From positions 2,542,001 through 2,606,000 of the forward strand of contig NZ_JANADR010000001.1 of the NCBI RefSeq assembly GCF_024199925.1: DNA of 64,000 bases, given 5' to 3'. The notes under the pieces are model-generated. The model saw only the letters and a list, made by a program, of their open reading frames with translations, had not been told where the DNA came from and searched no databases. A program made the position numbers and the translations under genes. This stretch comes from Bradyrhizobium sp. CCGUVB1N3. Its GTDB lineage: Bacteria > Pseudomonadota > Alphaproteobacteria > Rhizobiales > Xanthobacteraceae. Each line of letters starts with the position of its first letter. Within the stretch, counting starts at the first letter, position 1. This document shows, one piece after another, positions 32,008 through 36,443 of this stretch.

Positions 32008-32505
32008 CTAAAACGCATTCCGCAGCAGCGGATATTTCGCTTCGATGCCGTCGAGGCTGAAGGTGAATTCGACGACGCGTTCGGGGATTGCAGGCGGAGG
32101 CCCGGGGGCGATCGGGGCTTCGGTAATCTCGGCGAGCCGTTCGGGCATGCCGGCAAGGCCGACAGGCACGACCGTTTCCGGCACAATGTGCACGGCCTTC
32201 GGCTGCACGGTCTGGGCGTGCTCGCGGCGCACCGTCTCGCGTGACAAGGCCGCCGGCGACCAGCCCAATGCCACCGTCCCGACGGGACTCATCGCCGGCA
32301 CGTCGGCGCCGTCGGCGAGCGCCCGCCAGGTCTGCACGGCGCGCTTGGCTTCCTGGATGTTTTCGAGAAAGGCGACTTCGGAGTGATAGCGGCGCCAGCG
32401 TCCGGTCTCGAACATTTCGGTGAGATGTTCCAGCCGCTGTTCGGCGAGCGCGCACCAGCGTTCCGCGATGTCGCGGCCGCGAGCCACGCCTTGGCGATGT
32501 GTCAT
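32008..32505 (-). CDS. TIGR03809 family protein
   Basis: A 165-residue soluble protein with the TIGR03809 pattern: RDIAERWCALAEQRLEHLTE and MFETGRWRRYHSEVAFLENI, then EAKRAVQTWRAL, a Pro-rich spacer, and a C-terminal FTFSLDGIEAKYPLLRNAF. The family is known from co-occurrence with TIGR03808, and here it is convergent with that gene. No enzymatic motif is seen. The N-terminal helices may form a coiled coil. The function is unknown. Confidence 0.85.
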   Translation of the reverse strand: MTHRQGVARGRDIAERWCALAEQRLEHLTEMFETGRWRRYHSEVAFLENIQEAKRAVQTWRALADGADVPAMSPVGTVALGWSPAALSRETVRREHAQTVQPKAVHIVPETVVPVGLAGMPERLAEITEAPIAPGPPPAIPERVVEFTFSLDGIEAKYPLLRNAF

Positions 32506-32996
32506 GAACCAGCCCGTCAGGAGAGAACCACGGACGCGTGACGCAACGCAGACGAATCAATTTAGACGTGACGGGATTATTTTGTGGAAAAGTTTTGACT
32601 TGTCCAGCGACGACGCAAATTTCGGGGCGAAATTCCGTAGTGGTGCGGAGATTTCGCGGGCTTTCGTCGTCAAGCCCCGCACAAGCATGGCGGTCTTGCA
32701 GCGCAAGTGCGCGAGGCGATTCGCAAACATCATCTGTGCTGACTCAACCCGGAGCTGAACGGCGGGGAGCTTCGGAGATCGAGAGATCGAGAGCCCAAAA
32801 AGAAAAGACCCGTCCGGGGGGACAACCGGACGGGTCAAGCCATATGGGCGCTTGGGGTGGATGGGCGCTCGCGCCTGATATGACTGATGGGGAGGGATGA
32901 CCGCTCCCACATCATTTGGTCGTGGCACAGGGCCGAACGTTCAAAACCCGTCGCGTGATTTTTTAACCTTCGCAGCCCGCGCAGCCTTGCGCGCAA
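32506..32996. other. Gene-free interval with a terminator
   Basis: A 491-bp interval with no supported gene. It contains the promoter region of the TIGR03809 gene at its left end, an AT-richer patch near 32555-32610, and the strong terminator of the protease operon at 32796-32836. The minus-strand frame 32557-32928 spans that hairpin and is rejected. Confidence 0.5.
32796..32836 (-). terminator. Intrinsic terminator of the sigma/anti-sigma/protease operon
   Basis: On the minus strand a perfect 11-bp stem (32836-32826 with 32817-32807) and an 8-nt loop are followed by a U-rich tail (TTTTCTTTTTGGG). It lies 160 bp after the protease stop. On the plus strand there is no T-run, so it acts for the leftward operon only. 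Confidence 0.85.
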
Positions 32997-34691
32997 CTAT
33001 CGCGCGGCAGGTCTATCCGCTTGAGAAAGCGTGGATTTGTCGGCGGCGCCGGAAAGCGAGGGTTGCTCCAGCGCGCGTGTTCCAGGCTCTTCGCGACGTT
33101 CCGACGCATCTTCACGTTTTGTTGTTCCCGGCACCGCCGCAACCGGCGTCGCACCGTCGACGGCAACCGCCATGACCGCGGCATAAGCATCGGGCTCACC
33201 GTCCCCGAACAGATCGTCGCGGCCCGGCGTTCCCAGGTCGCGGGCGGTCTTTACGAGCGTCAGGCGCAGCGCTTCCGGCTTCAAAGCGTAGTTGCGCTCC
33301 AGAAGCAGCGCGGCGACGCCCGAGACATAGGCCGCCGAGAACGAGGTGCCCGACGTCATCTGGTATTTGCCATCCGGCGCCGGAAGGAAGATGTCGACGC
33401 CGGGCGCGGCGAGCGCGATGTGGCTGCCGCGATTGGATGCGGAGAACAGCTTGTCCTGCGCATCGGTCGCGCTGACCGCGATCACGTTGGGATTGGCCGC
33501 GGGATAGAGCGGCGGAGATTTCGCACCGGCATTGCCGGCCGCCGCGATCAGCACCAGCCCGCGCGCGGCGGTCGCCGCGATGGCGCGCTCGATCACCGCG
33601 TCCTTCGGCCCGGCAAAGCTCATATTGACGATCTGCGCGCCGTGCTCGGCGGCGTAGTTCAGCGATCTCAGGATCACGTAGGATGAACTCTCGGCGCCCC
33701 CCGTGGTGCCGCCGAAGGCGCGGATCGCGATGATGCGCGCCTCGGGCGCGCTCCCCATCAGACGGGCATGCGACACGATCGCGCCGGCGATGCCGGTGCC
33801 GTGAACGTGCGGCCCTTCCTTGCTGCCGAGCGCGTCGAAATTGTCCGCGATTGAATTGGCAAGCTCGGGATGGCTGGTGTCGATCCCGGAATCGATCACC
33901 GCGACCGTGACGTTCGCGCCATGCACCAGCATATGTGCCTCCGGCAGGCGGAGCTTTGCCAGCACATATTGCGCGGGGTCGCCTTCCGCAGGCACGCGCG
34001 CCTTCTGGTCCTGGAGCATGTAACGGAAATTCGGCTGCACCGAGCGCACGCCGTTCGCAGCGGCGAATTCGCGGCGCGCGGTGTCGTAGGACCGGCCGTC
34101 GGTGATGCGGAACAGCCCGATGGTGGCGCCGATCAGCGGAAAGCTTTCCGACGCAATGCGGGTCAGGCCGTGGCTGCGCGCAAGCGCGTCGGCATCGGCC
34201 GTCGAAAGGTTGCTGTCGAGCTCGGCCACGAACTCATTGGCGAAACTGCGCGACGTGGTGGCGGCCTGCGCCGTGCTCCGGCCCGAATTGCCGGCGCCGT
34301 TCTTGCCAGATTTCCCCGAACCGCCACCGGCAGCATTCGGCTGGCCCAGGCATTCGCCGTCGGCGTCGGGCGCGCTACAGGCCGGATAGAGATTGGGCGA
34401 ATAGCGTACGTATGGCAGCAACGCCGTGTGGGCCATGCGCGCCGTCAGCCGGGGCACCACCCTGGGTCCGCGATCGACGCTGGTTACCGCCCGCCCGGTG
34501 ACGACGGGACTGCCGCGCCCCGTCACCGTCGGGCTGATGGTCGGCACGCGGGAAGGAATGCTGATTGTCGGCGTGCGCATGATCGCCTGCGCGTGCGCGA
34601 CCTCGCCGCCGAAAGCACCAATCAAGAGAATCGCGCCCACCGACGAAGCGCAGGCGCCCGCTCTCGACACGCTTTCGGACTTGCGCTTCAT
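32997..34691 (-). CDS. Secreted subtilisin-like serine protease (S8)
   Basis: A 564-residue exported protease. A signal peptide (about 1-36, ending VAHAQA) is followed by a Pro/Thr-rich spacer and a Gly/Ser/Lys-rich linker (115-145). A propeptide-like domain (about 152-224) ends in QPNFRYML. The catalytic domain (about 240-480) has Asp267 in VIDSGID, His297 in HVHGTG, the oxyanion Asn387 in AAAGNAG and Ser450 in SGTSFSAAYVSG. The start at 34691 gives the signal peptide; the longer frame is within the anti-sigma gene. It lies 13 bp after the anti-sigma gene in one operon, so its expression probably depends on the ECF sigma factor. Confidence 0.92.
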   Translation of the reverse strand: MKRKSESVSRAGACASSVGAILLIGAFGGEVAHAQAIMRTPTISIPSRVPTISPTVTGRGSPVVTGRAVTSVDRGPRVVPRLTARMAHTALLPYVRYSPNLYPACSAPDADGECLGQPNAAGGGSGKSGKNGAGNSGRSTAQAATTSRSFANEFVAELDSNLSTADADALARSHGLTRIASESFPLIGATIGLFRITDGRSYDTARREFAAANGVRSVQPNFRYMLQDQKARVPAEGDPAQYVLAKLRLPEAHMLVHGANVTVAVIDSGIDTSHPELANSIADNFDALGSKEGPHVHGTGIAGAIVSHARLMGSAPEARIIAIRAFGGTTGGAESSSYVILRSLNYAAEHGAQIVNMSFAGPKDAVIERAIAATAARGLVLIAAAGNAGAKSPPLYPAANPNVIAVSATDAQDKLFSASNRGSHIALAAPGVDIFLPAPDGKYQMTSGTSFSAAYVSGVAALLLERNYALKPEALRLTLVKTARDLGTPGRDDLFGDGEPDAYAAVMAVAVDGATPVAAVPGTTKREDASERREEPGTRALEQPSLSGAADKSTLSQADRPAAR

Positions 34692-34704: not shown

Positions 34705-35403
34705 TTAAGGCGCCGCCACGGCGAGGTTGACGATCTTCTCGCGCTGCATCCTGCCGAGCAGCGAGGCAAGCTCGTCGTTGTTCATCGCCTTGTTGAACTG
34801 GAGGCGGAACATGCCGCCCTTGGCGCCGTCGACGATCGAGGCCTGGTAGCTGTCGAGCAGCGTGGTGATGTCAGCGATCCGCGCGTCCGGCGTGAACCGC
34901 ACCAGCGCATGCGCCGACGCCGCACGCGAGGCCCCGAGCTCGCGCGTGATCGGCTCATTCGTAGAGAGCGAGGCCGTCTGGAAGGTCGAGTTCTGGTTCT
35001 TCATCAGCACGGCGCCGATGACACCGGCCTGCAGCAGCAGCGCGATCACGCCGAGGCTCGCCGACCAGGCGAGCGTGCGCGGCGACAGGCTCGCGAAGAA
35101 GGTGGAGATGCGCGAGGAGAGCGACAGCGCGGTCGGCGCTCGCGCGGGCTCCGCGTCGATCGCCGCGAACAGCTTCTGCATCGCGCGGGCCGACGGAGCA
35201 CCGAGGCTCTCATTGAGATGGATAGTCTCTTCGTATTCGGTACGGATCGCGGCATATTGCCTGGCGAGATCCGGATCGCGGGCGAGCGCTTCCTCGACCC
35301 GGCGCGTATCGCGCGGATTCAGCGTGCCGGCAGCATGCCATGGCAGCAGCATCTCAATTTCACTGGGCTCTTGCTCCAGCATCTTCTTGCTCAATGCCAT
35401 CAT
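34705..35403 (-). CDS. Membrane anti-sigma factor with propeptide-like periplasmic domain
   Basis: A 232-residue single-pass protein. The N-terminal cytoplasmic domain (1-85; EIEMLLPWHAAGTLNPRDTR) looks like an anti-sigma domain but lacks the zinc-binding HxxxCxxC. One membrane helix lies at about 109-134. The periplasmic end (165-230: ALVRFTPDARIADITTLLDS, then GGMFRLQFN and DELASLLGRM) has the strand-helix-strand-helix rhythm of subtilase propeptides and resembles residues 152-224 of the adjacent protease. The ATG at 35403 overlaps the sigma stop (ATGA). It probably holds the ECF sigma factor inactive until an envelope signal. Confidence 0.8.
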   Translation of the reverse strand: MMALSKKMLEQEPSEIEMLLPWHAAGTLNPRDTRRVEEALARDPDLARQYAAIRTEYEETIHLNESLGAPSARAMQKLFAAIDAEPARAPTALSLSSRISTFFASLSPRTLAWSASLGVIALLLQAGVIGAVLMKNQNSTFQTASLSTNEPITRELGASRAASAHALVRFTPDARIADITTLLDSYQASIVDGAKGGMFRLQFNKAMNNDELASLLGRMQREKIVNLAVAAP

Positions 35404-35969
35404 GGCCAGCCTCGTTCTACGCCGGCTGCCTTGAGCAGATCGGCCAGTTTCTTGCGCGCATAGAACAAGCGCGTCTTCACGGTGTTCTCCGGTATTCCGA
35501 CGATTTCGGCCACCTCTTCCACGGACTTCTCGTGGTAGTAGACGAGATCGACGATTTCCCGATGTTCCGGCGACAGTGCCGTCAAACACTCTCGCAACGC
35601 TTCACTGGTATCCTTTTTCTGCACCGCCGTTTCCGGATCGTCGGACTGGTCCTCGATCGCGTTGGCGGCCTCTTCGTCCAGCTCAAGATCCTTCCTGCGC
35701 CGAAGCGCAGACAGGGCCTTGAATCGGGTGATTGCCAGCAGCCAGGTGGAAACAGCGGAACGTCCCTCGAACTTTCCGGCCTGACGCCAGACGTCGAGAA
35801 ACACCTCACTGATCAGGTCCTCAGCGACCTGCTCATCGCGCACGAGCCGGAGCCCGAAGCGATAGACCCTGACATGGTGCCGCCCGTACAGCACCTGCAT
35901 GGCGAGCCGGTCGCCTTGGGCGATCCGGGCGATCAGGACTTCGTCCGAAGCCGCCTGTGTCACGCTCAA
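35400..35969 (-). CDS. ECF-type RNA polymerase sigma factor
   Basis: A 189-residue sigma factor of the extracytoplasmic-function class. Region 2 is visible in LYGRHHVRVYRFGLRLVRDE and LISEVFLDVWRQAGKFEGRS (about 28-69), with the -10-recognition helix AVSTWLLAITRFKALSALRR. Region 4 (about 125-180) contains LSPEHREIVDLVYYHEKSVE and IPENTVKTRLFYARKKL. It is translationally coupled to the anti-sigma gene. The reported start is a TTG at 35969; a GTG two codons later at 35963 is as plausible. A stretch of up to 474 bp upstream should hold its promoter. Confidence 0.9.
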   Translation of the reverse strand: MSVTQAASDEVLIARIAQGDRLAMQVLYGRHHVRVYRFGLRLVRDEQVAEDLISEVFLDVWRQAGKFEGRSAVSTWLLAITRFKALSALRRRKDLELDEEAANAIEDQSDDPETAVQKKDTSEALRECLTALSPEHREIVDLVYYHEKSVEEVAEIVGIPENTVKTRLFYARKKLADLLKAAGVERGWP

Positions 35970-36443
35970 AGGCCGTCTCGCAAAGTTGGTCGGGTCGAAA
36001 CGGCAGGCGGTTCGACGGGTGGCGCAAGATTCTTCAACTTACCGCAGTCGTACGGGGACATGTGTGATGTGCCCCACATACGCGCGTTTTCTTGCAGCCC
36101 TTGGGGACATGCTGAAAATGGTAACATAATACTAGAACTTTTCCCTACGGAGCGCCCGCAGGCGCGGCGCGATCTTACCAAGCCTCGATCCATAACGCAG
36201 CCTTGCGCAGCGCATTCGCCGGCCAAAATGACTGTATCTCTGGACCTTACCGTTGACCTTATCCGTGGCCCATTACTTGACGCATTCCCCGGCCTATCGC
36301 CGACAATCCCTAATCGCTGGCTAATTTCCGTGTCGGATCAAGGCACTTACCCGGGCGCAGCGCCCGGATTCGCACCGCAAGGATACCAAACCTAAAGGCT
36401 TGCCACGTAGATTTTTGGACTGACATTCACCAATGGCAGGTTC
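35970..36443. other. Divergent regulatory region of the ECF operon and the GGDEF gene
   Basis: A 474-bp gap. An imperfect palindrome at 36055-36074 (GGGGACAT, spacer, ATGTGCCCC with a one-base bulge) is a candidate operator or hairpin for the sigma operon. At 36354-36369 there is a GC hairpin (CCGGGCG CA CGCCCGG-like). I could not find a clear ECF-type -35/-10 pair. No gene was supported. Confidence 0.4.

Follow-up and report, generated by a model that had tools for sequence, protein, structure and literature searches.

A periplasmic domain resembling subtilase prodomains in an anti-sigma factor encoded in one operon with an S8 protease in Bradyrhizobium

The stretch of DNA analyzed here (the window) comprises 64,000 nucleotides from Bradyrhizobium sp. 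CCGUVB1N3 and carries a minus-strand operon of three genes, encoding an ECF sigma factor, an anti-sigma factor and an S8 subtilase (Table 1). The original prediction had described these genes as one operon, coupled by an ATGA and a 13-bp gap and closed by a strong terminator, and all of this was found on the minus strand: the sigma and anti-sigma genes overlap in the ATGA at 35400-35403, 13 bp separate the anti-sigma gene from the subtilase gene, and an 11-pair stem with a T run (32836-32807) ends the operon about 160 bp past the subtilase stop. A further gene on the same strand (32008-32505) comes after the terminator.

Table 1. Features of the sigma, anti-sigma and subtilase operon in the window.
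Feature	Coordinates	Strand	Description
ECF sigma factor	35400..35969	minus	189 aa, TTG start
Anti-sigma factor, single-pass	34705..35403	minus	232 aa, ATGA overlap with the sigma stop
S8 subtilase	32997..34691	minus	564 aa; Pfam Peptidase_S8 6.3e-45
Intrinsic terminator	32807..32836	minus	11-pair stem, then T run TTTTCTTTTT
Predicted transmembrane segment	35002..35067	minus	residues about 113-134, with Gln125; hydropathy only
Juxtamembrane periplasmic motif FQTAS	34969..34983	minus	residues 141-145; consensus [FY]xTA[STG]
Periplasmic prodomain-like domain	34708..34914	minus	residues 164-232, predicted beta-alpha-beta-beta-alpha-beta
Subtilase prodomain	34014..34247	minus	residues 149-226; capping positions Q219/N221

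The product of the first gene contained regions 2 and 4 only, as an ECF sigma factor does (Pfam Sigma70_r2, 1.9e-16; r4_2, 2.3e-15), and scored 352 bits with the NCBIfam model PRK12515 (cut-off 236). Group ECF26 is recognized by a group HMM together with a -35 GGAATA promoter; a search of the 290 bp preceding the sigma gene in the window turned up no GGAAT or GGAAC element. An open frame (35966-36079, minus strand) was observed upstream of this gene, with its TGA overlapping the sigma TTG start. A C-terminal end of the type RPTLRDG[LH] was common to most of the 30 upstream regions compared, the start codon of the frame was not conserved, and its third-position excess was weak in the coding-bias check. 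Two blocks conserved in the genus at 36061-36078 and 36120-36131 (minus strand), a TGTGG-N6-TCACA-like one and TATTATGTTACC, are possible operator and promoter elements.

The anti-sigma factor was recognized weakly by the family models (NCBIfam anti-sigma model, 7e-9 and 36 bits against a cut-off of 100; zf-HC2, 0.015, below its cut-off). It was classified by its position adjacent to the sigma gene, its ATGA coupling, a cytoplasmic anti-sigma domain and one predicted transmembrane segment. A glutamine inside this segment was present in 92 of the 104 non-redundant relatives, a few of the remaining segments being misplaced in long linkers. No convincing family was obtained for the periplasmic part of the window copy in the Pfam and NCBIfam scans. 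The subtilase has an N-terminus which by inspection resembles a signal peptide, and the columns of D267, H297 and S450, which we read as the Asp/His/Ser triad of S8 enzymes, were among the invariant ones in 65 protease sequences. Its model superposes on pro-Tk-subtilisin, prodomain included, so that the triad columns and the canonically docked prodomain of the model are consistent with an active S8 protease.

The original prediction had also claimed that anti-sigma residues 165-230 share the layout of the propeptide region of the protease (residues 152-224), with ALVRFTPDARIADITTLLDS corresponding to FVAELDSNLSTADADALAR. Two alignments were compared by hhalign, one of 103 anti-sigma C-terminal domains (the 104 non-redundant ones, less one dropped for an unknown residue) and one of 65 proteases of such loci (64 of 67 stretches plus that of the window, with L146, L154 and L233 left out). 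The C-terminal 70 or so residues of the anti-sigma factor aligned with the prodomain of the operon protease over their full length (63 columns, probability 90.9%, P 1.1e-6, score 34.9), and the two blocks fell in the same register, beyond chance. The highest score reached with 150 column-shuffled propeptide alignments was 18.0, the best with windows of the catalytic domain was 16.2, and the reversed propeptide gave 8.9; with 20 random subsets of 30 propeptide sequences, scores of 30.3-37.7 were obtained. Shallower first profiles had given a probability of only 18% (P 0.0013), and the increase came from the deeper alignments. Of two fold controls, an HMA alignment scored 10.4. The SPOR alignment scored 29.4 (P 8.8e-6), matching only the second half of the domain (35 columns vs. 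63), so part of the match signal is common to other small domains.

Furthermore, a Pfam scan at E <= 0.5 detected the fervidolysin prodomain family (PF22148) in 25 of the 103 anti-sigma domains, with a best E of 1.5e-6, the next family being SPOR (13/103, best E 0.0088). Since the same scan found PF22148 in 26 of the 65 operon proteases, the anti-sigma domains were not far behind real prodomains. When ten domains were scanned singly, two of them (L161, 27.5 bits; L120, 24.6 bits) exceeded the curated PF22148 cut-off of 21, and no other family passed. The domain of the window itself gave no PF22148 match in Pfam; its link to prodomains therefore rests on its family, at which level both hhalign and PF22148 matched, and not on the window copy alone. 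A search of 60 whole genomes with PF22148 yielded seven places over the cut-off. In six the frame also has an S8 domain, and one of these is the subtilase directly adjoining a domain-bearing anti-sigma factor (G387); the seventh was an anti-sigma factor of this very family (G096).

In the opposite direction, a profile of the anti-sigma domain searched against 398 genomes matched, at 1.8e-6, the prodomain of a 1036-aa protease, immediately N-terminal to its S8 domain (G379, L198); among the better matches, those in G691 and G640 (L213, L214) lie in frames that could not be confirmed as anti-sigma factors. Single-family HMMs on raw open reading frames gave weak cross-matches in register: the anti-sigma-domain model reached S8 frames at E 1.5 at best, and the propeptide model reached anti-sigma frames at E 0.47 at best. 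A sequence-profile search of solved structures returned three matches at E <= 10, led by a sporulation-specific amidase (1x60, 0.047), and no prodomain. Recurrent weak matches of the domain profile to frames of about 430 aa were taken as chance, covering only about positions 18-63; three inspected frames (L218, L219, L232) resemble serine hydroxymethyltransferase. A 172-aa frame adjoining an S8 gene (L222:1459-1977, minus strand) matched the domain profile with E 3.6e-4 over positions 9-77; it has the look of a free-standing propeptide, and no Pfam family was found.

In AlphaFold models, the anti-sigma domain (mean pLDDT 80.6) is predicted to fold as beta-alpha-beta-beta-alpha-beta, and the order of elements is the same in the subtilase prodomain, in agreement with the layout claimed originally. 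Structure prediction and comparison with prodomain profiles, two of the checks suggested along with that claim, gave a fold that is not unrelated to propeptides. Foldseek returned no match for the domain at E <= 0.001 and placed ACT, BLUF, S6 and RRM folds among the prodomains; in a listing of 50 rows, only 7 were subtilase prodomains. Such results would be expected if the domain were a generic ferredoxin-like sensor resembling prodomains by fold and not by descent, and the SPOR score over half the length and the missing PF22148 match of the window domain fit this explanation as well. We consider it improbable, given that the profile match to the prodomain extends over the full length, that PF22148 tops all families in the members and is the only one to pass its cut-off in single scans (2/10), and that the places found by PF22148 in 60 genomes were six S8 proteases and one such anti-sigma factor. 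Judged by these comparisons, the subtilase prodomain and the periplasmic domain of the anti-sigma factor encoded beside it are diverged relatives, the latter reduced to a core, and their common descent is highly probable.

Prodomains hold a subtilase by three elements, namely a sheet packed against two surface helices, a pair of acidic capping residues (Glu69/Asp71 in BPN') and a tail that enters the active site, the last of which helps but is not essential for inhibition in PfSUB1 (PMC6993865). In our reading, the capping pair sits just after the last strand, where Q-P-N stands for it in the operon studied here. The pair, taken as [EQ]x[DN], was found in 48 of the 65 operon protease prodomains vs. 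1 of 98 anti-sigma domains, and the middle proline of these columns was kept in 61 of 101 anti-sigma domains. Additionally, 96 of 103 anti-sigma factors end no more than four residues from the cap column, before an active-site tail could begin. The domain thus corresponds to the core of a prodomain from which two of the three holding elements, the helix-capping acid/amide pair and the C-terminal tail, are gone. The anti-sigma domain also differs from known subtilase prodomains (PF22148 Fervidolysin_NPro-like; the propeptides of Tk-subtilisin and subtilisin E/BPN'), with which it shares the core profile and the order of elements, in belonging to a separate, membrane-tethered protein.

These losses bear on the word "mimics", by which the original prediction related the domain to the propeptide. 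If the word implies propeptide-like binding, the claim found no support, and mimicry of an active-site ligand was largely rejected. A true propeptide mimic would be a membrane-tethered inhibitor of the active site, released or destroyed when the protease is in excess. It would draw on the homology to prodomains seen by hhalign, and there is a precedent in SUB1-ProM of malaria parasites, a propeptide-like protein encoded, as here, beside subtilase genes; nevertheless, SUB1-ProM is a stand-alone inhibitor which itself has the cap residues and a C-terminal extension, and the domain studied here is part of a transcription regulator without them (PMC6993865). With the cap pair in 1 of 98 domains and the tail in very few, we regard a true mimic as very unlikely, and it keeps this small probability because the tail is reported to be dispensable for inhibition in PfSUB1 (PMC6993865). 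Without the gripping parts, a direct protease-sensing loop is no more than a possibility.

The conservation of the three genes was analyzed in several samples. Within the genus, a match to the anti-sigma factor was present in all of the 36 sampled genomes, that of the window included (in G003 as two pieces), and sigma, anti-sigma and subtilase occurred together in 35 of them (30 loci and 5 of 6 others), the exception being G003 (L057). The expected conservation of the operon was thereby borne out. In the order sample, the protease was adjacent at L044, L045 (where the sigma gene lies at a contig edge), L046, L047 and L049 and upstream of the sigma gene at L048, while L051, a match at 9.4e-4, had none of the three genes. 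Sampling 289 genomes from the class added six matching genomes, all with the trio together; a weak second match in one of these six (L037) had none of the trio.

A scan of named genomes, in which the best 80 loci from 270 relatives were used and a few contigs were shared with the other samples (e.g., L058, L046), showed an S8 gene in the fetched stretch of 60 of these 80. Five of the 20 loci lacking it end at a contig edge less than 1 kb from the anti-sigma gene (L074, L087, L094, L122, L127), which gives a nearby subtilase in 60 of 75 informative loci from the best 80; in five of the 60 (L062, L071, L102, L126, L132), the protease is nearby and not directly downstream. The 15 absences include Rhodopseudomonas (L107, L116, L117, L124) and three of the nine Bradyrhizobium-labelled loci (L081, L099, L101), so the genus is less uniform than 35 of 36 implies. 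Separation of the protease gene from the pair, which if frequent was to count as evidence against the original prediction, was confined to a minority (1/36 sampled genus genomes, 15/75 informative named loci). By inspection, the homologue of 32008-32505 was the next sizeable frame past the anti-sigma gene at several of the S8-less loci (e.g., L081, L116, L077), a pattern suggesting loss of the protease gene at one and the same position.

When further places bearing the domain were examined (L199-L215, two pairs of which come from one genome each), an S8 gene was nearby in 13 of 17, the exceptions being L202, L203, L213 and L214; no sigma factor was recognizable beside the domain at L213 and L214, and only a weak one at L203. 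Among anti-sigma relatives without the domain (L238-L256, L216, L217), an S8 gene was nearby in only 1 of 21 (L254). As controls, these relatives are more remote, and many have a different periplasmic domain; all of these counts ignore phylogeny.

In lineages without the neighboring protease, the domain was under purifying selection, with pN/pS values of 0.06-0.64 in 10 pairs (one including L094, whose flank is cut), compared with 0.35-0.69 in six S8-bearing pairs. A search of 12 S8-less named genomes with the window protease found a close relative elsewhere in three (L097, L109, L131; E <= 2.0e-87). With the S8 family model, other S8 genes were detected in six of eight genomes with a protease-less locus and none in the remaining two, the draft isolate Bradyrhizobium sp. 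ARR65 and a metagenome-assembled genome. Because of this selection and of the S8-less genomes, the domain seems to do something independent of this particular protease.

These observations would also be accounted for if the subtilase served the sigma factor as an output only, with the domain sensing another envelope cue or being read by a general site-1 protease and the conserved operon reflecting co-regulation and not contact. The absence of the grip elements agrees with such an arrangement, as does a related sigma-S8 pair on pSymA of Sinorhizobium meliloti. There, RpoE6, of group ECF26, adjoins SMa0142, a divergently oriented gene for a serine protease, and this layout is described as widely conserved within the group; overexpressed RpoE6 raises the expression of the protease gene, which is thus a target of the sigma factor, and the periplasmic part of EcfR6 was noted as resembling RsiW (PMC6180224).

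In the pSymA sequence (L168:7423-10290), we found an S8 protease, a divergent ECF sigma factor and an anti-sigma factor taken as EcfR6, the frames being matched to gene names by their arrangement in a record without annotation. The protease frame is of the same S8 type (S8 profile, 5.4e-78), and the anti-sigma frame gave no match to the prodomain-like model (best E 3.1). Like the window, this locus has an ECF sigma factor, a downstream membrane anti-sigma factor and a neighboring S8 subtilase; unlike the window, its protease gene is divergent and its anti-sigma factor has no prodomain-like domain. Hence, the link between ECF sigma factors and subtilases is wider than the domain. The strong co-occurrence of domain and protease (13/17 vs. 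1/21, with more distant anti-sigma factors as controls) would be unexpected if the two were unrelated, and we consider a subtilase that is output only rather unlikely. Regulatory coupling of the sigma factor and the protease is, in turn, likely.

The linker between membrane and domain was also analyzed. TAS occurred in 48 of 104 such linkers, against a mean of 3.8 in shuffled ones. The consensus [FY]xTA[STG] was found in 53 of 80 proteins with an S8 gene nearby vs. 5 of 18 without (Fisher p 0.0036, phylogeny ignored), after near-duplicates (similarity >0.85), contig-cut loci, loci with short flanks and frames without a recognized anti-sigma domain had been dropped; an earlier count on a 110-residue stretch, in which long linkers were missed, gave 51 of 79 vs. 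4 of 18 (p 0.0014). The consensus occurred once in the 21 domain-less control anti-sigma factors (L256), inside an apparent membrane segment. The motif may be a cleavage site, and its association with a nearby S8 gene counts in favor of the regulatory coupling.

Our preferred reading, to which we assign a probability of roughly 45%, is that the domain is a repurposed prodomain acting as a periplasmic sensor of an ECF system, probably with a regulatory link to the protease and perhaps with weak docking between the two. The domain would then act as sensor in a switch that works by regulated proteolysis. After export, the subtilase would shed its own prodomain and so expose the prodomain-binding surface, which the tail-less domain of the anti-sigma factor might touch weakly, leaving the active site unblocked. 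Docking of this kind would place the protease next to the linker close to the membrane, where the conserved [FY]xTA[STG] motif lies; either the subtilase or a different site-1 protease could cut there, and intramembrane cleavage would then free the sigma factor, which would transcribe its own operon. Counting against this reading are the loss of the cap pair and tail, the purifying selection on the domain at loci lacking the protease, the genomes in which no S8 gene was found, the S8-bearing loci whose anti-sigma factor lacks the domain (pSymA, L254), the SPOR match over half the length and the lack of a GGAAT/GGAAC element ahead of the sigma gene in the window.

That the subtilase physically acts on the anti-sigma factor through the prodomain-like domain is a tentative proposal. 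Somewhat more doubtful is its full form, in which the tail-less copy on the anti-sigma factor counts free mature subtilase: a chaperone and inhibitor fold that works in cis would have become a sensor in trans, and docking without blocking would let the enzyme cut the motif, so that the sigma factor follows protease activity. A simple mimic is disfavored by the loss of the grip elements and by the lineages that lack S8, and we see direct protease sensing by the domain as a minority possibility.

The same general logic is known from RsiV of Bacillus subtilis, an anti-sigma factor reported to be the receptor for lysozyme (PMC4183432, PMC5014341). Its extracytoplasmic domain binds an enzyme and is then degraded, with the difference that the ligand of RsiV is lysozyme and the one proposed here would be a product of the cell's own operon. 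The original prediction knew of no description of such a circuit. This stood for the relationship between domain and prodomain, since among the matches listed in searches of the open-access literature none described an anti-sigma factor with a prodomain-like domain (a set that does not extend to the principal ECF classification papers, to subscription articles or to supplements), and did not stand for the pairing of an ECF sigma factor with a neighboring protease, which is in print (PMC6180224). The relationship is therefore real, conserved and, as far as these searches reach, undescribed, in an anti-sigma family that spans the Alphaproteobacteria and some other Pseudomonadota.

To our knowledge, neither the periplasmic signal nor the receptor domain is known for most ECF systems. 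Where a receptor domain derives from the prodomain of a protease encoded beside it, that protease is a concrete candidate ligand, and the present case suggests that a module for folding and inhibition can become a sensor through the loss of its gripping parts.

Two individual loci deserve mention for the gene in the place of the protease. At L047 (1540-2915, minus strand), the subtilase is split over two overlapping frames, which suggests a frameshift or an assembly error. At L202 (3950-4756, minus strand), a Peptidase_C14 caspase-domain protein (1.8e-39) takes the place of the subtilase after a domain-bearing anti-sigma factor.
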